From: Nitrospira tepida | Lineage (GTDB): Bacteria > Nitrospirota > Nitrospiria > Nitrospirales > Nitrospiraceae | Direction of reading: 5' to 3' | Assembly: GCF_947241125.1 (NCBI RefSeq) | Contig: NZ_OX365700.1 | Coordinates: 2,202,001-2,266,000, forward strand | DNA length: 64,000 nucleotides | In this document: piece by piece, positions 5,960 through 18,067 of the stretch | How the letters are laid out: each line of letters begins with the position of its first letter | Position numbering within the stretch: the stretch's first letter is position 1 | Notes under the pieces: generated by a model | Told to the model about the DNA's origin: nothing | Seen by the model: the letters and a program-made list of their open reading frames with translations, nothing else | Databases searched by the model: none | Translations under genes and position numbers: made by a program

Positions 5960-5979
5960 GGGAGCCTCCCTTCTGTCCG

Positions 5980-6228
5980 TTAAGAGTGTTCAGTGGCCGC
6001 CGGGTCTGCAGGCGCAACAGTCCGTGCATCGTCGATCCAAGCAGGCCCGCTCCGATGATCCAGATGGTATTGCGCCCGGCACGTTTCGCAGCGAACCAGC
6101 CAGAGACAGCCGTCCGGGTAGTAATCACATTGGAGCATCGGCTCCAGGTCATGACGGCCACAAGTTGGACAGGGCAGTTGGTGGAGTTGGATTCGAAGGG
6201 CCATTACCGGTTCGTCTTGACGTGTCAT
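5980..6228 (-). CDS. Small zinc-ribbon protein (82 residues)
   Basis: Two cysteine pairs, CPTC and CETC, are spaced by about 28 residues and frame an aromatic stretch (CDYYPDGCLWLVRC), as in a treble-clef or ribbon zinc site. The ATG at 6228 has a GAAGGAGATGTGCC ribosome-binding site, so the first 10 codons of a longer reading from 6258 are not used. I do not recognise a named family. Function unknown; it may bind RNA or a partner protein. Confidence 0.7.
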   Translation of the reverse strand: MTRQDEPVMALRIQLHQLPCPTCGRHDLEPMLQCDYYPDGCLWLVRCETCRAQYHLDHRSGPAWIDDARTVAPADPAATEHS

Positions 6229-6302
6229 GGCACATCTCCTTCCTCGATCAACCTTCAATCAGTCGTGGGAAGGGCATGATCGCTTCGATTATGCTTCTCG
6301 CC

Positions 6303-6515
6303 TTATGCCGCCACGAGTCTTGGCATCGGAGGGCTGTAGACCGTGGGCGGTTCGACCGTCTCGGATGAACACCGTCTATTAGCGAGAATCGTCTTGTCGA
6401 CCACATCGCCGCAGAGCAGGCAACGATAGCCGTCCACACTGAGATCGCCGCTTGTCCCTCGCAGATCACAAATCTGCTCGCTGACCATCAGGCCATTGCA
6501 TCGTTCGCAGGTCAT
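6303..6515 (-). CDS. Small zinc-ribbon protein (70 residues)
   Basis: Starts MTCERCNGLM with a first CxxC pair at residues 3-6 and a second pair (CLLC) near residue 32, a compact zinc ribbon. The C-terminal 30 residues are Pro/Val rich. The ATG at 6515 follows GAGGAGGTGCGTC. It is the first gene downstream of a candidate Crp/Fnr-type promoter and may start an operon with the second zinc-ribbon, CBS and M48 genes. It is probably a distant paralogue of the protein at 5980-6228. Confidence 0.72.
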   Translation of the reverse strand: MTCERCNGLMVSEQICDLRGTSGDLSVDGYRCLLCGDVVDKTILANRRCSSETVEPPTVYSPPMPRLVAA

Positions 6516-6770: not shown

Positions 6771-7127
6771 ATGTCCAAAGTCGCGATTGTCGTGTTGGCC
6801 GACACGGAAACACACGAAGGGTTAGGCCGTGTGGTGAATGCCCTGGAATCCGTCAAGGAGTTCAAGGACGGTCATGACGACGTTCAGCTCATCTTCGACG
6901 GCGCCGGGCCCAAGTGGATTCCCGAGTTGGAAAAGCCCGATCACAAGCTGCACGGGCTCTACAATGCGGTGAAAGATCGGATCGGCGGGGCCTGCGAGTT
7001 CTGCGCGGGAGCATTTGGCGTGAAGGACAAAGTGGTTGCATGCGGGGTGAAGCTGGCAGGGGAGTACGACGGACATCCCAGCTTCAAAAAGCTGGTGGCG
7101 CAAGGCTATCAGGTCATTACGTTCTAG
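6771..7127 (+). CDS. DsrE/DsrF-like sulfur-relay protein
   Basis: A 118-residue cytoplasmic protein with the DsrE fold signature: MSKVAIVVLADTETHEGLGR at the start, VQLIFDGAG in the middle and a cysteine-bearing segment (GACEFCAGAFGVKDKVVACG) that holds the candidate sulfur-carrying cysteines. DsrE-family proteins pass persulfide sulfur in sulfur relay or oxidation. The ribosome-binding site is GAAAGGAG. It stands alone under site E. The exact partner is not visible. Confidence 0.82.
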   Translation: MSKVAIVVLADTETHEGLGRVVNALESVKEFKDGHDDVQLIFDGAGPKWIPELEKPDHKLHGLYNAVKDRIGGACEFCAGAFGVKDKVVACGVKLAGEYDGHPSFKKLVAQGYQVITF

Positions 7128-9324: not shown

Positions 9325-9864
9325 TCAGTACACGATCACATGATCGGCTGATACGAACAGGCCCACCATCTTTTCCAGCGGAAGGGGGGTTACTGAAGAG
9401 GCGACTCGAGCCGGATCGATCTTGTAGAGCAGCATCATGGTCTGATTGCCATAGATTTCAACGCCCAGCTTGCTCTTGAGGATCTCAAAGTACTCCCCGT
9501 AGTTATGCGGGACCTGCTCCAGGGGTACGCCCATCTGTTCGGAGACGCTCTGCCGTTCTCGCTCCGGCAGCCCCGCTCGTTCGAGCGCGGTACTGTCCGA
9601 ACCGACCAGTCTGCGAAAAAAGCCAAACCCCTTGGTCACTGATGTCACCGCGCTGGCATCAACCAGAATTGTCACCTTATGGCCCGCCTTGACGGCCGCC
9701 CAAGCCACATTCGGCACGGCACAAATTTGCGCATCGTCCTCTGCCAGCGAGGTCTTCATGTGGATCAGGATGCTGGCTGCGGACGCGTGCTGCGTGCCTA
9801 GGCCGGCGATCCCTATGAGTGTCATGCACATCGCTAGTATCATGGTCACGATCTGTCGGTTCAT
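9325..9864 (-). CDS. Exported DsrE/DsrF-like protein of the mer-type operon
   Basis: A 179-residue protein with a signal peptide (MILAMCMTLIGIAGLGTQHASA) and a DsrE-like alpha/beta core: SILIHMKTSLAEDDAQICAVP, VKAGHKVTILVDASAVTSV and a long Met/Tyr-rich C-terminal part. A single Cys (ICAVP) remains in the mature protein. The ATG at 9864 overlaps the upstream AhpD-like gene by 4 bp. Being exported and at the end of a merF operon suggests thiol or sulfur chemistry in the periplasm. That role is inference. Confidence 0.75.
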   Translation of the reverse strand: MNRQIVTMILAMCMTLIGIAGLGTQHASAASILIHMKTSLAEDDAQICAVPNVAWAAVKAGHKVTILVDASAVTSVTKGFGFFRRLVGSDSTALERAGLPERERQSVSEQMGVPLEQVPHNYGEYFEILKSKLGVEIYGNQTMMLLYKIDPARVASSVTPLPLEKMVGLFVSADHVIVY

Positions 9865-10292
9865 GACCCGCCCTCCGCATTCTTGTTCTGGCTCATAGAC
9901 TGGTGTTCGCAGCAGGTTGACGCATCCGAAGTCGGCCGACAACTCGTGCAGTCCTTGTATACGGCATAGGCCTTCAGTGCCCATTCCTCGCCAGGGCAGC
10001 CTTGCATGGTCATCGCGACTTCGAGGAATTCAATCAATTCGTCCAGAGTAATGCCCTTTTCGACCGCCATTTGGACGTAGGCTCGAATGCAGGGCTCACA
10101 TCGGATGGCGATTGAGACGCTCATTGCCGTGAGGAGCTTGTATTTGGCGGAAACAACCCCGTCGCGGTACGCCTCCTGTCGCATGCGAAGCAGCCCGCCG
10201 GTGACCTTCGGACTGAGGCGACGCAGCTCTTGAAATAAACTTTCGGCATCTGACCTTATCTCTTTTTGTTCTTCGGTCATGAGTTTTGTCAT
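9861..10292 (-). CDS. AhpD-like carboxymuconolactone decarboxylase-family protein
   Basis: A 143-residue CMD-fold protein with the redox motif CEPCIRAYV (CxxC near residue 68) inside the usual VSAKYKLLTAMSVSIAIRC helix. The C-terminal 30 residues add an unusual cluster of cysteines (DCTSCRP, STCCEHQ) that may bind metal. ATGA overlaps couple it to merF upstream and the DsrE-like gene downstream. It is probably a thiol oxidoreductase serving the metal-resistance operon. Confidence 0.82.
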   Translation of the reverse strand: MTKLMTEEQKEIRSDAESLFQELRRLSPKVTGGLLRMRQEAYRDGVVSAKYKLLTAMSVSIAIRCEPCIRAYVQMAVEKGITLDELIEFLEVAMTMQGCPGEEWALKAYAVYKDCTSCRPTSDASTCCEHQSMSQNKNAEGGS

Positions 10293-10549
10293 CCTTCCGG
10301 TTTACCGTGTTCTTTTGCGGAATGATGCGAACAACAGCCGGAGACGTCATCCCGATTTCTCCGAGACAGGCTGTACAGGGCCAAGCCAAGGAAGGCGGCT
10401 AGGGCGGGGAGCAGCACATAGTCCAGGTAGCCCGTGACCGCTCCCAGGCCGAGAAGACCCAGCAGCCCGACCAGAATCGGCGTGAAACAGCAGAGTGCTG
10501 TCAACGCTGCGCCTGTTAAGCCCAAAGTCATGAGACGGTTCCGGTTCAT
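10289..10549 (-). CDS. merF: MerF-type mercury transporter
   Basis: An 86-residue inner-membrane protein with two helices. The first carries the vicinal cysteine pair ALCCFTPILVGLLGLLGLGA, and the second (YLDYVLLPALAAFLGLALYSL) matches MerF almost word for word. A second pair (CCSHH) sits in the cytoplasmic tail, as expected for handing Hg(II) to an internal acceptor. It is coupled by ATGA to the AhpD-like gene. No mercuric reductase gene is visible in the window. Confidence 0.9.
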   Translation of the reverse strand: MNRNRLMTLGLTGAALTALCCFTPILVGLLGLLGLGAVTGYLDYVLLPALAAFLGLALYSLSRRNRDDVSGCCSHHSAKEHGKPEG

Positions 10550-10582
10550 GGAGTCATGCCTCCCTGATGTTCGCCCTTACCA

Positions 10583-10861
10583 TCACGCCTGTCCGACGCC
10601 AGCAGCCCTTAAGCGATCGGCTGTGATCGGTTCCCGCCGGCAACAGTCCAACAACACACCGTTAACCGCGACGGCCGGGACTGCGGTGATCCCGTAGCGT
10701 CTCGCTTTGTCCCGGCATTCGTTCGTCGCGCAGCCCTCCCGTAGATCGTAGATCTGTAGGTCGCAACTGGGGCAGACTAAAGACTTGACCAGCTTGACTG
10801 TGTTATCACAAATGGGACAGCCAGCCGTGAATACCTCAACCCTTCGCTTTGTGGTCACCAT
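10583..10861 (-). CDS. Cys-rich thioredoxin-fold protein of the mer-type operon
   Basis: A 92-residue thioredoxin/glutaredoxin-like protein: VEVFTAGCPICDNTVKLVK with a CxxC site at residues 15-18, then CPSC, EGCATNEC and a cis-Pro segment (ITAVPAVAVNG), ending with LDCC. Such proteins often accompany merF/merT and may carry Hg(II) or reduce disulfides. The ribosome-binding site AAAAAGGAG survives only 14 bp from the edge of the IS5-family insertion, so native transcription from merR has probably been disturbed. Confidence 0.82.
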   Translation of the reverse strand: MVTTKRRVEVFTAGCPICDNTVKLVKSLVCPSCDLQIYDLREGCATNECRDKARRYGITAVPAVAVNGVLLDCCRREPITADRLRAAGVGQA

Positions 10862-10884
10862 CGTGGAATCTCCTTTTTTCTCTA

Positions 10885-11718
10885 GAACCTATCTCAAAAT
10901 TGTTTGAGGAGCATCGTGATGCAGGCGAGCTGCACGAACCCGAGAAAATTGGCGGCGTAGTACTCCCAGCGAACGAGGAGTCGGCGTTTCCACTGGAGCC
11001 AGGCAAAGAACCGTTCAACGAGCCAGCGGCGTTGGTACCGGCGTAGGTGCCGCCCATCCTGGGTCTTGAGTTTGCGAGTGGATCGATGCGGCGCGATCAG
11101 GTTCACCCCGTCTTGGTGGAGGTCGGCATCGAGGCCATCGCTGTCATACGCCCGATCCCCGATGAGATGCTCGGGCTTGGCCTCGAGCATGTAGAAGTCG
11201 AAACTGAGTTGGACCAGGGTGACTTCATGATGATTCGCCGCATGCGTGCTCACGGAGAGGGGCAGTCCGTGCCGATCCACAATCGCCAGGATTTTCACGC
11301 CCTTGCCGCGCTTCGTAAGTCCAATGGCCTCGCCGCCGCCCTTGGCCGCCGCAAACGTGGCATCAATGAAACTCTCGCGTTCATCAATGGCCCCTTCGTC
11401 ACGCAGCGTGTTTGCCAGCTGGGTGAGGACCTCTCGCAGGACCTCCCGTTGACACCACTGTTGGAACCGGCGATGCACGGTCTTGTAGTTGGGATAGCAC
11501 TGCGGGAGCAGGTGCCATTGCGCCCCGGTGTTCAGAATCCAGAGCACCGCTTCCAGGACGGCCCGGGTTGGGATCGGTTTGCGGCCCGGGCGAGTGTCCG
11601 GGATGTGCTCTTCAGGACAATGATCCCGAATCCGCTCCCATTGATCGTCGCGCAACCGCAGCATGGGAGCACCTATACGGACGGACTGTCATGCTGTCAA
11701 TAATTTTGAGATAGGTTC
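10885..11718 (-). mobile_element. IS5-family insertion sequence (834 bp)
   Basis: Terminal inverted repeats of 17 bp (GAACCTATCTCAAAATT at 10885-10901 and its complement at 11702-11718) flank one transposase gene. The element is bordered by TA on both sides (10883-10884 and 11719-11720), fitting the 2-bp TA target duplication of this family. The repeats are perfect over 17 bp, which suggests recent insertion. It lies between merR and the thioredoxin-fold gene, in the same orientation as the operon. Confidence 0.9.
10894..11664 (-). CDS. IS5-family transposase, single ORF
   Basis: A complete 256-residue DDE transposase of the IS427/IS1031 type: N-terminal WERIRDHCPEE, then LWILNTGAQWHLLPQCYP, the first catalytic Asp in FIDATFAAAKGGG, the second in LIGDRAYDSDGLD and the Glu in RWLVERFFAWLQWKRRLLVR. 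No stops interrupt it, so it is probably active. The gene ends 9 bp inside the left terminal repeat. Confidence 0.93.
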   Translation of the reverse strand: MLRLRDDQWERIRDHCPEEHIPDTRPGRKPIPTRAVLEAVLWILNTGAQWHLLPQCYPNYKTVHRRFQQWCQREVLREVLTQLANTLRDEGAIDERESFIDATFAAAKGGGEAIGLTKRGKGVKILAIVDRHGLPLSVSTHAANHHEVTLVQLSFDFYMLEAKPEHLIGDRAYDSDGLDADLHQDGVNLIAPHRSTRKLKTQDGRHLRRYQRRWLVERFFAWLQWKRRLLVRWEYYAANFLGFVQLACITMLLKQF

Positions 11719-11790
11719 TAATCAGGCTTGTATGGTTCTGCCGTTGTGGCTGGACGAAACAGCCTGGCAGGTGTGGATCAATTCCTGACG

Positions 11791-12267
11791 TCACCTAAGC
11801 AATTCCGAAGGTCCGCTTCCCGATCCGTTCACCTCCTTTCGCGCTGTGCGTCTCTTTCCGTGCATTTCATCCTCCAGGGCCTTGAGAATTGGACACCGAT
11901 CAGTTGGCTGGCCAGCCCGGCAGTCGCGAAGCAAGCTTCGTAGTGCCCTGGCCAGTGCCTGCAAGTCGCGCACTTTTGCCTCCACGTGCCTCAGCTTGGC
12001 TTCCGCCCTCCGCTGCACATCACCGCACCGGGCTTTCGATCTGACCCGAAGATCGAGGAGTTCTTCGATCTCATGGAGCGTAAAACCCAACGCCTGGGCG
12101 TTCTTGATGAAGCGGAGACGTCGCTGCGCCTCGCTGTTGTAGAGTCTATAGCCGGACGGCAGCCGCGAGGTGGGGTCGAGTAAGCTGCGTCGCTCGTAGT
12201 AGCGAATCGTTTCGATATTCACCCCAACATCCTTTGCAAGCTGCCCAATTGTGAGTTCGGTTGTCAT
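11791..12267 (-). CDS. merR: MerR, mercury-responsive regulator
   Basis: A 158-residue MerR-family regulator: helix-turn-helix (TIGQLAKDVGVNIETIRYYERRSLL), wing (LPSGYRLY) and dimer helix. Cysteines at residues 81, 116 and 125 reproduce the spacing of the Hg(II) ligands of Tn501 MerR (82, 117, 126). The ATG at 12267 follows ATGAGGTGCAC. Its TGA overlaps a GTG whose frame runs into the insertion sequence, so the original downstream gene or spacer was cut. It probably controls itself and the downstream merF genes from one promoter. Confidence 0.92.
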   Translation of the reverse strand: MTTELTIGQLAKDVGVNIETIRYYERRSLLDPTSRLPSGYRLYNSEAQRRLRFIKNAQALGFTLHEIEELLDLRVRSKARCGDVQRRAEAKLRHVEAKVRDLQALARALRSLLRDCRAGQPTDRCPILKALEDEMHGKRRTARKEVNGSGSGPSELLR

Positions 12268-12284
12268 GTGCACCTCATGTGTGA

Positions 12285-12315
12285 CGATACACCCTGTACC
12301 ATAGTACGGAGTCAA
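12285..12315 (-). promoter_or_regulatory. MerR-type operator/promoter
   Basis: On the minus strand a -35 hexamer TTGACT (12310-12315) is followed by CCGTAC TATG GTACAGG, a dyad that fills an over-long spacer of about 19-20 bp before a weak -10 near 12285-12290. Long spacers with a central GTAC dyad are the hallmark of MerR-family promoters and closely resemble the Tn501/Tn21 mer operator. Confidence 0.8.
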
Positions 12316-12557: not shown

Positions 12558-13745
12558 ATGCCGATAGACGAAATCACGCAAAAAGTCAGTGACCGCTACG
12601 CGCGGGCTGCCGCCGCAGGCGAGCAGATGTGCTGTCCGACGAGTTACGACTTCGCCGACCTGAAGACGTTTATCCCAGAAGAGGTGCTCAAGATTTCCTA
12701 TGGTTGCGGCACGCCCGCCGGGTTGAAGACGGTCCGCCCCGGTGAGACGGTCCTGGACATCGGCTCCGGCGGAGGAATCGACTGCTTCGAAGCCTCGCGG
12801 TTGGTCGGACCGACCGGCCGTGTGATCGGTCTCGATATGACGGACGCGATGCTGGAGATTGCGCGCCGCAATGCGCCGATTGTTGCAGCGAATCTGGGCT
12901 ATGCCTCCTCGAACGTGGAGTTCCGAAAGGGCATGGCCGATGCGATGCCGGTGGACGACAACACGATCGATCTGATCATTTCCAACTGCGTCATCAACCT
13001 GGCTCCTGATAAGCGCAGGGTCTTCCGTGAGATGTTCCGCGTCACGAAACCGGGTGGGCGTTTTACGATTTCCGATATCGTGTCAGACCAAGCCGTCCCG
13101 CAATACTTGGTGCATGATGCTGAAAAATGGGGTGAGTGTCTCTCCGGCGCATTGACGCTCGCGGCCTACAGTGTCGGCATGGTGGAAGCCGGGTTTCTCG
13201 GTATCCATCTCGTCAAGTTCTCTCCCTGGCAAGTCATCGATGGGATTCACTTCTTCTCCGTAACGCTGACCGGCTACAAACTCCCACCGCATCCTGCGGG
13301 ACCCGCCGTTCGCTACGCGACACTCCGCGGACCATTTAGCCTTGTGGTGGATGAACGTGGAGCCAGCTACCAGCGAGGTATTCCGCGACCGATCGGGCCG
13401 GACACGGCTCTGCTGCTGAGTCAACCCCCGCTCGCCCCGTATTTTGTGCTGTCCCATGAACCGATCGTGCTCGACCGAGCGGATGCGCGCTGGTGGGCGG
13501 TGTTGCCCTCGCAAGCCTCTTGCGTGTGGCAAGGAGACTTTGCCCTGCTCGCGGGCCCATTTCTCGAAGCTGCCGATGACGATCATCACGTCTACCGACG
13601 GGGAGAACCGCTGGAAGTCTGCTCCAAGACCCTCAAGGTATTGGCAACCGACGGGTATGCTCCGCATTTCGCCATCATCAACCGCGCCGGCCAACGCGTG
13701 AATGGCGGCGAGGTCACCTGTTCACCCGATGGAGGCTGCTGCTGA
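12558..13745 (+). CDS. arsM: ArsM, As(III) S-adenosylmethionine methyltransferase
   Basis: A 395-residue methyltransferase. The SAM site reads VLDIGSGGGIDCF (residues 65-77). Cysteines expected to bind As(III) are C50 (SYGCG), C144 (ISNCVINL) and C194 (GECLSGAL), the last two 50 residues apart as in characterised ArsM. An extra vicinal pair (CCPTSYD, 25-26) and a C-terminal GGCC could hold arsenic first. The last 150 residues form the extra domain of long ArsMs. The arsR ATG begins in its stop codon. Product methylarsenicals feed the ArsS branch. Confidence 0.92.
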   Translation: MPIDEITQKVSDRYARAAAAGEQMCCPTSYDFADLKTFIPEEVLKISYGCGTPAGLKTVRPGETVLDIGSGGGIDCFEASRLVGPTGRVIGLDMTDAMLEIARRNAPIVAANLGYASSNVEFRKGMADAMPVDDNTIDLIISNCVINLAPDKRRVFREMFRVTKPGGRFTISDIVSDQAVPQYLVHDAEKWGECLSGALTLAAYSVGMVEAGFLGIHLVKFSPWQVIDGIHFFSVTLTGYKLPPHPAGPAVRYATLRGPFSLVVDERGASYQRGIPRPIGPDTALLLSQPPLAPYFVLSHEPIVLDRADARWWAVLPSQASCVWQGDFALLAGPFLEAADDDHHVYRRGEPLEVCSKTLKVLATDGYAPHFAIINRAGQRVNGGEVTCSPDGGCC

Positions 13746-14101
13746 TGAAGCCCGCCTCACCCGGCGACATGCTCACCGCAGACCAATGCGCCACGATTCT
13801 CAAGGCCCTGGCGGATCACACCCGGTTGCGTATACTGGAGTCGTTACTGATCGAGGAGAAGTGCGTGACGGAACTCGTCCGGCAGCTACGCTGTCCGCAA
13901 CCGCACATCTCCCATCATCTCCGGATTCTCCGGGATGCCGGATTGATTGAGGGGCTTCGGGACGGCAAGCAGGTCTGTTATCGAATCCTGCCGAGGGTCC
14001 AACGCGTGCTGGCCAATCGGCAGGGACGGGCGCTCAACTTCGGATGCTGTGAGTTGCGATTCCCGGAAATGGTGTTGGCCGGCATGGGGCACACCCGCTG
14101 A
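13745..14101 (+). CDS. arsR: ArsR/SmtB-family repressor
   Basis: A 118-residue winged-helix protein: LKALADHTRLRILESLL, recognition helix QPHISHHLRILRDAGL and wing RDGKQVCYRIL. Cysteines are present at EKCVTEL and LRCPQPHISHH, inside the DNA-binding helices where ArsR-type metal sites occur, and as a pair near the C-terminus (FGCCELR). It overlaps arsM by one base. It probably represses the operon through the dyad at 12518-12533 until As(III) binds. Confidence 0.88.
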   Translation: MKPASPGDMLTADQCATILKALADHTRLRILESLLIEEKCVTELVRQLRCPQPHISHHLRILRDAGLIEGLRDGKQVCYRILPRVQRVLANRQGRALNFGCCELRFPEMVLAGMGHTR

Positions 14102-14132: not shown

Positions 14133-15194
14133 TTGCTCACGGATATAGAGATGGCGCTGACCTTGCTCGGACGACACAACCCGCTCGCCTCTTCCGCTGA
14201 ACAGCTCAAGGTGCTGACAGAAACGGCCGGTTGTCCTCCGTTTGAAAGGCGACTCAATCAGGCCGACTTGTTCCCGCTCCACGCCACAGGGATCACGGTC
14301 TTTCAGATCAACGTCGGCAAGCTCTGCAACCAGACCTGCCGGCATTGTCACGTCGATGCAGGGCCGGACCGCACCGAAACGATGTCGAAGGAGACCGCCG
14401 AACTCTGTCTCGCGGCGTTGGCCAGGACCGACGTTCTAACCGTCGACATCACCGGCGGCGCACCCGAGCTCAACCCGAACTTTCGTTGGCTGGTCGAACA
14501 GGCTCGTGCGCTCGGCCGTCATGTGATGGATCGCTGCAATCTCTCCGTGTTGCTGCTTCCCTCCCAAGCAGATCTTGCCGAGTTTCTGGCTGCCCATCGC
14601 GTCGAAGTCATTGCGTCGCTTCCGGCCTATCGTGCTAGCCAGACCGATGCGCAGCGGGGAGAAGGGATCTTTGAGAAATCGATCGAGGCCCTCAAACTCT
14701 TGAATCGCCTCGGATACGGTCGACCGGACAGCGGCCTTGTTTTGAACCTCGTTTACAATCCCGTCGGCGCGTTTCTCCCTCCCAAGCAAGAGGCCATCGA
14801 AGCGCAGTTTAGAAAAGAACTCCGGAGCCGGCACGGCGTCGAGTTCAACCGTCTCTACACCATCACGAATATGCCCATCAGTCGGTTCCTGGAGTTCCTG
14901 ATCGAGAGCGGCAATTATGAGGCCTACATGGATCGATTGGCCACTGCGTTCAACCCGGCCGCTGCCGCCGGCGTCATGTGCCGGTCGATGATTTCCGTGG
15001 GATGGGACGGCACCCTGTACGATTGCGACTTTAATCAGATGCTCAACCTGCCGGTCGACAAGGGAATGCCACGCCATATTCGTGACTTCGATCCGACCCG
15101 CCTGAGCGCACGCAGGATTGTGACGAGGAATCACTGCTACGCCTGCACGGCCGGTGCCGGCTCGTCTTGCGGCGGGGCGGTCACGACAGCATAG
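14133..15194 (+). CDS. arsS: ArsS, radical SAM enzyme of arsenosugar biosynthesis
   Basis: A 353-residue radical SAM protein. The cluster motif CNQTCRHC (C65, C69, C72) is followed by HVDAGPDR, and the C-terminus holds the ArsS-specific cysteine signature CYACTAGAGSSCGG. ArsS joins a 5'-deoxyadenosyl group to dimethylarsenite on the way to arsenosugars. The start is taken at the TTG at 14133, which has GAGGTG eight bases upstream; the ATG at 14151 lacks such a site. It lies between arsR and a phosphate permease in one operon. Confidence 0.92.
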   Translation: MLTDIEMALTLLGRHNPLASSAEQLKVLTETAGCPPFERRLNQADLFPLHATGITVFQINVGKLCNQTCRHCHVDAGPDRTETMSKETAELCLAALARTDVLTVDITGGAPELNPNFRWLVEQARALGRHVMDRCNLSVLLLPSQADLAEFLAAHRVEVIASLPAYRASQTDAQRGEGIFEKSIEALKLLNRLGYGRPDSGLVLNLVYNPVGAFLPPKQEAIEAQFRKELRSRHGVEFNRLYTITNMPISRFLEFLIESGNYEAYMDRLATAFNPAAAAGVMCRSMISVGWDGTLYDCDFNQMLNLPVDKGMPRHIRDFDPTRLSARRIVTRNHCYACTAGAGSSCGGAVTTA

Positions 15195-15207: not shown

Positions 15208-16341
15208 ATGGAGTTATCGATCCTCACATTCGTCCTCGTGTTGTCTCTGGCTTGCGCCAACGGCGCGAACGATGTGTCCAAAGCAATTGCCACCCTCGTT
15301 GGCAGCGGGGTGACCAACTACCGGACCGCGATCCTCTGGGGAACGCTCTGGACAATGATCGGCGCTGGGCTCTCGGGATTGGTCGCCACCGCGATGGTGA
15401 AGACCTTCAGCCAAGGACTGCTGGCGCCAGACGCTCCCGCATCGCCGCCCATCGCCGCCGCCGTGCTCATTGGCGCGGTCCTGTGGGTACTGGCCGCATC
15501 CTGGAGCGGCCTCCCTGTATCCACCACCCATGCGTTAACCGGCGCGATCGTCGGGGTAGGCCTCGTCGCATTTGGAAGTGAGGGGCTTCTGTGGAAGGGA
15601 ATTGGAAGGAAGATTGTCTTGCCGCTCATCCTCAGTCCCGTGCTGGCCCTGATGGTCTCTGTCATTGTGCATCGTCTTGTCCGCACGCTCGCGGCTCGAT
15701 GGGAAGGAGCCTGTGTTTGTGTGATGCCGACCGCCAGGGCGCTGGTCATGATCGATGCGCAGGGAGCCACACGTACTTTGTTTCAGACCGCGGCTCTGGG
15801 GCGACCGGTGGTGGCCGTTCCGGTTCAGTGCGACCGGGCGGGACTGAGCGGGCTCGTTGTTGGGTTGGACAGTATCCATTGGTGCTCAAGCGGATTGGCT
15901 TCGCTGGCTCGTGGAACGAACGACGCCCCCAAGATTGCGGCGATATTGCTGCTCGGAAGCGCTGTCGCGACTTGGCCCAGCGCGGCCTATCAAGGTGTGG
16001 CACTCATCGGCGTGGCGATGGCGATGGGCGTCGGGAGCTACCTGGCAGGACTCCGTGTCACCCAAGTCCTTGCGGAGAAGGTCACACGGATGGATCACGG
16101 TGAGGGATTATCTGCGAATCTCACGACCTCCTCGCTGGTGATGGTCTCCGCCGTGATGGGGTTGCCGGTCTCGACGACCCACGTCAGCAGTTCGGCGATC
16201 ATTGGCATTGGATTGTTGAAAGGCGTCAGTGCCGTTCGATGGTCCACGGTGCGTGACATGGTCCTGGCGTGGGTCGTCACGCTTCCTGCTTCCGGACTTC
16301 TTTCCGCACTCGCCTATCATCTGCTCACCAGGCTTGTGTAA
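15208..16341 (+). CDS. pit: PiT-family inorganic phosphate permease
   Basis: A 377-residue inner-membrane transporter with the two duplicated PiT signatures: CANGANDVSKAIATLVGSG near the N-terminus and LARGTNDAPKIAAILL in the second half, plus VSTTHALTGAIVGVG and VSTTHVSSSAIIGIG. A cytoplasmic loop between the halves carries cysteines (CVCVMP, QCDR, HWCSSG). Placement 13 bp after arsS suggests a role linked to arsenic: restoring phosphate, or importing arsenate for conversion to organoarsenicals. The transported ion in vivo is not shown by sequence. Confidence 0.88.
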   Translation: MELSILTFVLVLSLACANGANDVSKAIATLVGSGVTNYRTAILWGTLWTMIGAGLSGLVATAMVKTFSQGLLAPDAPASPPIAAAVLIGAVLWVLAASWSGLPVSTTHALTGAIVGVGLVAFGSEGLLWKGIGRKIVLPLILSPVLALMVSVIVHRLVRTLAARWEGACVCVMPTARALVMIDAQGATRTLFQTAALGRPVVAVPVQCDRAGLSGLVVGLDSIHWCSSGLASLARGTNDAPKIAAILLLGSAVATWPSAAYQGVALIGVAMAMGVGSYLAGLRVTQVLAEKVTRMDHGEGLSANLTTSSLVMVSAVMGLPVSTTHVSSSAIIGIGLLKGVSAVRWSTVRDMVLAWVVTLPASGLLSALAYHLLTRLV

Positions 16342-17564: not shown

Positions 17565-18067
17565 GGATCTGTCCCTACTGGAGACAAGCAGTCTGCTAAT
17601 TTGAACAGTTCCTTTGGTTGCGACTTCCTCAATATGTTCACCAGATGTTCACCAGGAGGCCGGAACTGGTCGGTTTGGGCGGGAAGAGATCGGATGTCGG
17701 AAAACGAGAAAGTGCGCTGGACGCTGCGATTCTCTTGGAGTTTGTGGAGTTTTGCGTGTGAAAGGGAGAAACGAGACGCGGTTTATGAGTCCGCTGCTCT
17801 ACCAACTGAGCTACACCGCCACGCAAGCACTGGAAGGGAATCGAAACAGAATTCGAACAAGCGAAACACAACTATAGCATGTCGCCGCTGCGTCGGACAA
17901 TCAGGGTTCTTGCTCGCAGCGGTTCAGATCGGGTAATGCGACGGGTCCGTCACATGCGCATGGTAGTCGTTCCCAAGGCAGCGAGTTTCAGATCTGTCAG
18001 TCGATCGTCCAGGATTGCGCTGCTGCGAACTTTTTCGCTGTGATCTCAGGCTTCCTCGGGAAGACGG
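17565..18067. other. Gene-free stretch with a truncated tRNA
   Basis: This 503-bp interval between two convergent genes holds the tRNA-Met 5' fragment at 17775-17820 and otherwise nothing I can support. Short frames here, including one containing the translation of the tRNA fragment, show no coding character. Confidence 0.6.
17775..17820 (-). pseudogene. tRNA-Met(CAT) 5' fragment
   Basis: Minus strand: acceptor 5' strand GGCGGTG, D-arm GCTC AGTTGGTAGA GAGC, and an anticodon arm with loop CTCATAA (anticodon CAT) are intact. After the anticodon stem (ACCGCG) the sequence diverges: no T-arm (GGTTCGAATCC-like) and no CACCGCC acceptor partner follow. About 46 nt of a ~76-nt gene remain, so it cannot make a functional tRNA. 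Confidence 0.75.

Follow-up and report, generated by a model that had tools for sequence, protein, structure and literature searches.

How might a cell that takes up mercury through a mer-type system cope without mercuric reductase? The question is raised by a locus in Nitrospira tepida, found in a 64,000-nucleotide stretch of its genome (the window), where mer-type genes stand together without merA. Reading down the minus strand from 12315 to 9325, the order is promoter, merR, an IS5-family element, a thioredoxin-like gene (trx), merF, a gene encoding a CMD/AhpD-fold protein (cmd) and a gene encoding an exported DsrE-like protein (dsrE). An earlier note on this DNA had described a reductase-free mer-type operon; all five genes are present on the minus strand as described, but the insertion element separating merR from the rest had been overlooked. 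ATGA overlaps, attributed in the same note to three thiol proteins, join merF to cmd and cmd to dsrE only, while trx and merF are separated by a gap of 33 nt. With the classical mer operon (merRTPA, MerF being an alternative transporter) the unit has the regulator, operator, Hg transporter and layout in common, and its relatives carry MerT and MerP; it differs in having no mercuric reductase and in the additional CMD and DsrE-like genes. The conserved merA-less unit is real and occurs far beyond the window, with a role in mercury handling that is predicted from sequence. The balance of probability tilts slightly towards a branch of the mer operons that does without the reductase, with CMD in the cytoplasm and the DsrE-like protein in the periplasm putatively binding or passing on Hg(II).

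The regulator and its operator are of the mer type. Encoded at 11791..12267 on the minus strand, the metal-responsive MerR finds its best family in the NCBIfam MerR model TIGR02051, although its 133.7 bits fall under the cut-off of 150.85; ZntR/CadR are the next-scoring families. Its best solved-structure matches, 4ua1 and 5crl, are both Hg MerR proteins. The Hg-ligand cysteine spacing noticed earlier is confirmed, with cysteines at +0, +35 and +44 that match those of Tn501 MerR in alignment and a triad kept in 47 of 47 distinct MerR relatives (46 by automatic pattern and one by eye), but such spacing alone is no proof of Hg specificity because Zn, Cd and Pb MerR relatives have similar cysteines. 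The proposed operator is likewise borne out: the operator-promoter TTGACT-20 nt-TATCGT with its dyad GTAC...GTAC (12284..12315, minus strand) is the sole match in the whole window to a search pattern derived from aligned relatives, with zero matches in shuffled sequence and none expected by chance. Its 20-nt spacer is overlong like that of the classical Tn501/Tn21 mer promoter, which is given as 19 nt (PMC11049809). A similar operator lies upstream of merR in about 45 related loci, both with and without merA. The MerR-type sensor is most likely one for Hg(II).

Mercury transport is represented by merF (10289..10549, minus strand), whose product is a membrane Hg(II) transporter with vicinal cysteine pairs in ALCCF and GCCSH. 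Its identification, made earlier from the letters alone, holds: MerF scores 86.5 bits against the curated cut-off of 50 for NF033565, matches PF11431 as well and aligns with the solved MerF structure 2m67 (E 5.5e-20). Upstream of it, trx (10583..10861, minus strand) encodes a Cys-rich thioredoxin/glutaredoxin-fold protein with an AGCPIC motif and further cysteines that matches Thioredoxin_3 at 25.2 bits (cut-off 24.8). This gene reappears with merR plus merF or merT at other loci.

The N. tepida genome, a single contig of 4.73 Mb, is rated complete, and a search with the MerA model found no MerA over the cut-off in the operon or anywhere in the complete genome. MerT is likewise missing from the complete genome in a search that was positive in two controls. 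The absence of merA and merT from the locus, reported in the earlier note along with the suggestion to look for merA elsewhere, thus extends to the genome as a whole. As a positive control, the MerA search recovered MerA over the cut-off in 10 of 41 relatives carrying the DsrE-like gene; the other 31 have no MerA over the cut-off. At least 12 genomes rated at least 95% complete have the unit without merA and also lack any MerA over the cut-off, and most genomes with this combination are drafts from which a plasmid may have been missed. A search for MerB gave no match, and its control likewise gave none. Against a reductase-free reading, eight flavin disulfide reductases in the N. tepida genome match the MerA model at 256–378 bits, under the cut-off of 454, and these relatives may yet be capable of reducing Hg(II). 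Of the eight, the six that were read after a motif filter have no MerA-like CC at the C-terminus.

To follow the unit beyond N. tepida, the DsrE-like protein was searched in 396 genomes of the phylum and a CMD alignment in about 85,000 species genomes. Gene order was assigned by BLAST against reference proteins, with MerT, HMA and MerF representatives verified by Pfam. This yielded 79 distinct CMD loci, 53 of which have full flanks and were used for neighbour counts; many come from related Nitrospira, and the 53 loci are not 53 independent events. Nearby genes include merR in 42 of the 53, a transporter in 33 and one or other of merR and a mer transporter in 46, with dsrE present in 21. Only five or six have merA, the sixth depending on a doubtful 46-aa match at L116. 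The earlier note had proposed counting how often the four genes occur together without merA: linkage of cmd to merR and mer transporters is wide and mostly merA-less, while the full trx-merF-cmd-dsrE set is one layout among several, the commoner cores being merR-cmd-dsrE and merR-merT-merP-cmd. Neither of the findings that the note held would tell against its idea, a merA elsewhere in the genome or a failure of the genes to co-occur, turned up in these searches. Bdellovibrionota, Acidobacteriota and other phyla are among the members of the CMD tree. Proteobacterial plasmids also carry merA-less layouts, merR-merT-merP-cmd in Methylocapsa and merR-merT-cmd in C. metallidurans pMOL30, and the DsrE-like protein had no match among the plasmids searched.

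Next to the locus lie arsenic genes. The window unit is divergent from arsM-arsR-arsS-pit on the plus strand, comprising an arsM-like gene (12558-13745; 232.9 against the ArsM subfamily cut-off of 263, hence below it), arsR (13745-14101; NF033788, 86.3 against 55), arsS (14133-15194; TIGR04167, 455.4 against 300) and, after arsS, a gene for a PiT-type transporter ending at 16341. We regard it as improbable that merR, cmd and dsrE serve these divergent arsM-arsR-arsS genes, CMD being a partner in methylating arsenic or making arsenosugars, and MerF being there incidentally. Such a role would agree with arsM being a neighbour of the unit in 15 of the 53 full-flank loci, and in seven full-flank loci merR-cmd-dsrE lies next to arsM without a transporter, an arrangement that would also suit a metalloid role. 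CMD also weakly matches the arsenosugar-associated peroxidase-like family TIGR04169, but its 43.1 bits are under the cut-off of 120. Moreover, 38 of the 53 loci are without arsM in range and most of them still have mer genes, the arsM-divergent site also holds merA-bearing operons (L055, L059 and L093), and the MerR has the Hg triad.

The CMD protein itself carries cysteines that favour the reductase-free mer branch. Encoded at 9861..10292 on the minus strand, it matches PF02627 at 53.9 bits (cut-off 23), contains a CxxC motif (CEPC) together with C99 and a C-terminal CC, and has a fold match in 5dik (Legionella lpg0406). Family and fold are shared with AhpD/CMD proteins such as this one; what distinguishes the mer-linked group is conservation of C99 and the C-terminal CC. 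Across 38 aligned CMDs from several phyla, CEPC, C99 and C127 never vary and C128 hardly does; the constancy of CEPC and C99 is partly built in through their inclusion in the locus search patterns. The CC tail was not part of those patterns. C127 and C128 sit in a tail that is variable apart from them, and the CC pair is found in 76 of 79 distinct CMD loci. Four non-mer CMDs from the plasmid matches, a small control, have CxxC but neither C99 nor CC. In an AlphaFold2 model the CC tail is of low confidence and is probably flexible.

MerA collects Hg(II) with a mobile C-terminal CC, and by analogy we infer a similar use of the CMD tail. A MerR-type sensor responding to Hg would switch on mercury uptake genes, MerF here and MerT/MerP in relatives, and thiol proteins would receive the imported mercury, either in place of a reductase or ahead of one. 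CMD is most likely a cytoplasmic Hg(II) acceptor whose mobile CC would collect the ion from the transporter, in the manner of MerA's C-terminal CC, and pass it on to CxxC and the third cysteine. The mercury would finally be sequestered, or else given over to cellular thiols or a different reductase. A bolder proposal, which we think rather unlikely, is that the mer-linked CMD is an enzyme of a new kind acting on mercury: with a C-terminal cysteine pair like that of MerA mounted on an AhpD fold, it would detoxify Hg(II) or split organic mercury compounds, and no flavin reductase would be needed.

AhpD-type proteins take part in the reduction of peroxides. The fold and CxxC of CMD would suit an antioxidant of this type that repairs mercury-caused damage and does not bind mercury, but that role leaves unexplained the C99 and conserved C-terminal CC of the mer-linked proteins, both absent from the four other CMDs, and it appears quite improbable to us.

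In the periplasm, the reductase-free mer branch would rely on the product of dsrE (9325..9864, minus strand), a member of a conserved family with an invariant DDAQIC motif. It has zero Pfam or NCBIfam matches. A structure model of moderate confidence (pLDDT 76.7) is available, and a fold search gives six matches with E < 0.001, all to DsrE/YchN-type (DsrE/F-type) structures. The exported protein is thus predicted to have a DsrE fold, an assignment that rests on predicted fold and not on sequence families. It would do a job matching that of CMD, or deliver sulfur, in the periplasm. Elsewhere in the window, a second small DsrE-like protein is encoded at 6771-7127 on the plus strand, scoring 19.2 against the Pfam cut-off of 22.7 and so below it.

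Around cmd and dsrE, merA comes and goes. A merA with an LSCCA tail lies immediately before dsrE in L054, L055, L059, L077 and L078 and after cmd in L063, L093, L103, L106 and L142, while longer flanks inspected in L129 and L149 contain no merA after cmd. The presence of dsrE or cmd inside true merA operons ties both genes to mercury. On the CMD tree merA presence changes at least six times, an approximate count given the few columns, weak forks and doubtful merA label of L116. Because cmd or dsrE adjoins a real merA in some genomes, both are better described as mer accessory genes than as pure substitutes, and a general replacement of merA by cmd is ruled out by the operons that the two share in L063, L093 and L103. 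The earlier suggestion that the thiol proteins offer an alternative route for Hg keeps its footing in the lack of merA from the N. tepida genome and in the recurrence of merA-less units; a simple exchange for MerA is what falls away, given that dsrE (in L054, L055, L059 and L077) and cmd also occur with genuine merA.

A substitute reductase within the operon was considered and rejected for N. tepida: a non-MerA flavoprotein adjoins dsrE in L108 and L065 and occurs split into two parts in L113; the window unit has none. In L108 (7858-9273) and L113 (2003-3357) a flavin disulfide reductase without the CC tail of MerA lies next to dsrE or has cmd on one side and dsrE on the other, and represents a candidate alternative reductase. 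The L108/L065/L113 flavoprotein shares no more than 30% identity with the N. tepida paralogues. At a further locus (L155:7354-9786) merR-cmd is followed by a gene that by eye resembles a heavy-metal P-type ATPase, which suggests export as another partner of CMD.

In N. tepida, control of the unit may have been altered by the insertion sequence of the IS5 family that separates merR from trx (10883..11720, minus strand). Its transposase (10894-11664) scores 215.3 against a cut-off of 110 for NF033580 and has the same orientation as the operon, and the element is bounded by 22-nt terminal inverted repeats at 10883-10904 and 11699-11720. Only one other near-full-length copy, 76% identical, exists in the genome. 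Scanning the interval between the element and trx with a simple consensus revealed no promoter. The insertion may uncouple the four downstream genes, trx, merF, cmd and dsrE, from MerR in this genome. N. tepida has a second merR-cmd-dsrE unit (L052, G000:C1:3916000-3931000), which is without merF and merA, is likewise divergent from ars genes (arsM-arsS-pit) and has no IS between merR and cmd. That the window unit is a decayed mer operon, whose genes are leftovers of little function after the loss of merA, is very doubtful: the element inside this copy and the repeated changes in merA presence on the poorly resolved CMD tree would agree with decay, but many species conserve a unit of this kind without merA and retain its operator and cysteines, and the second copy is uninterrupted between merR and cmd.

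Comparable gene sets have been reported. A survey of mer operons looked at genes flanking MerA (PMC3466566) and, being centred on those flanks, would leave out merA-less units. The truncated merRT-deltaP cluster of C. metallidurans pMOL30, whose function is unproven (PMC2864759), has merR and merT without merA, and no DsrE. On this plasmid (L083) we find a merR-like frame, merT and then a mer-type CMD gene at 5977-6351 that is 46% identical, a locus that is probably the published cluster. The merP1T1R5 cluster of Pseudomonas pseudoalcaligenes CECT 5344, reportedly induced by mercury (PMC10433974), lacks merA like the window unit, but its genome has merA in another cluster. Among the open-access papers searched we found none naming CMD or DsrE as mer genes. 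The recurrence of the unit in many related genomes suggests that there is another, so far unexplored means of dealing with mercury. Surveys of mercury resistance have been centred on merA, so that a recurrent merR-led, merA-less set with two conserved, little-studied thiol proteins would escape them; counting such units would change tallies of mercury-responsive organisms, nitrifying Nitrospira above all. The CMD with its CC tail offers a clear protein for probing reductase-free mercury handling.

The unit also lies in a 103,810-base block that is common to a genome of another genus (G393:C2:368587-472396) with one mismatch. The block runs from window position 17823 back to about -85986 (G000:C1), and its right end is at a tRNA-like sequence. 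The simplest explanation is that a mobile island was transferred recently, the alternative being a chimeric draft genome. Outside the block, other sequence of that genome is 72–80% identical. About 12 kb past the left end of the block there is an integrase domain.
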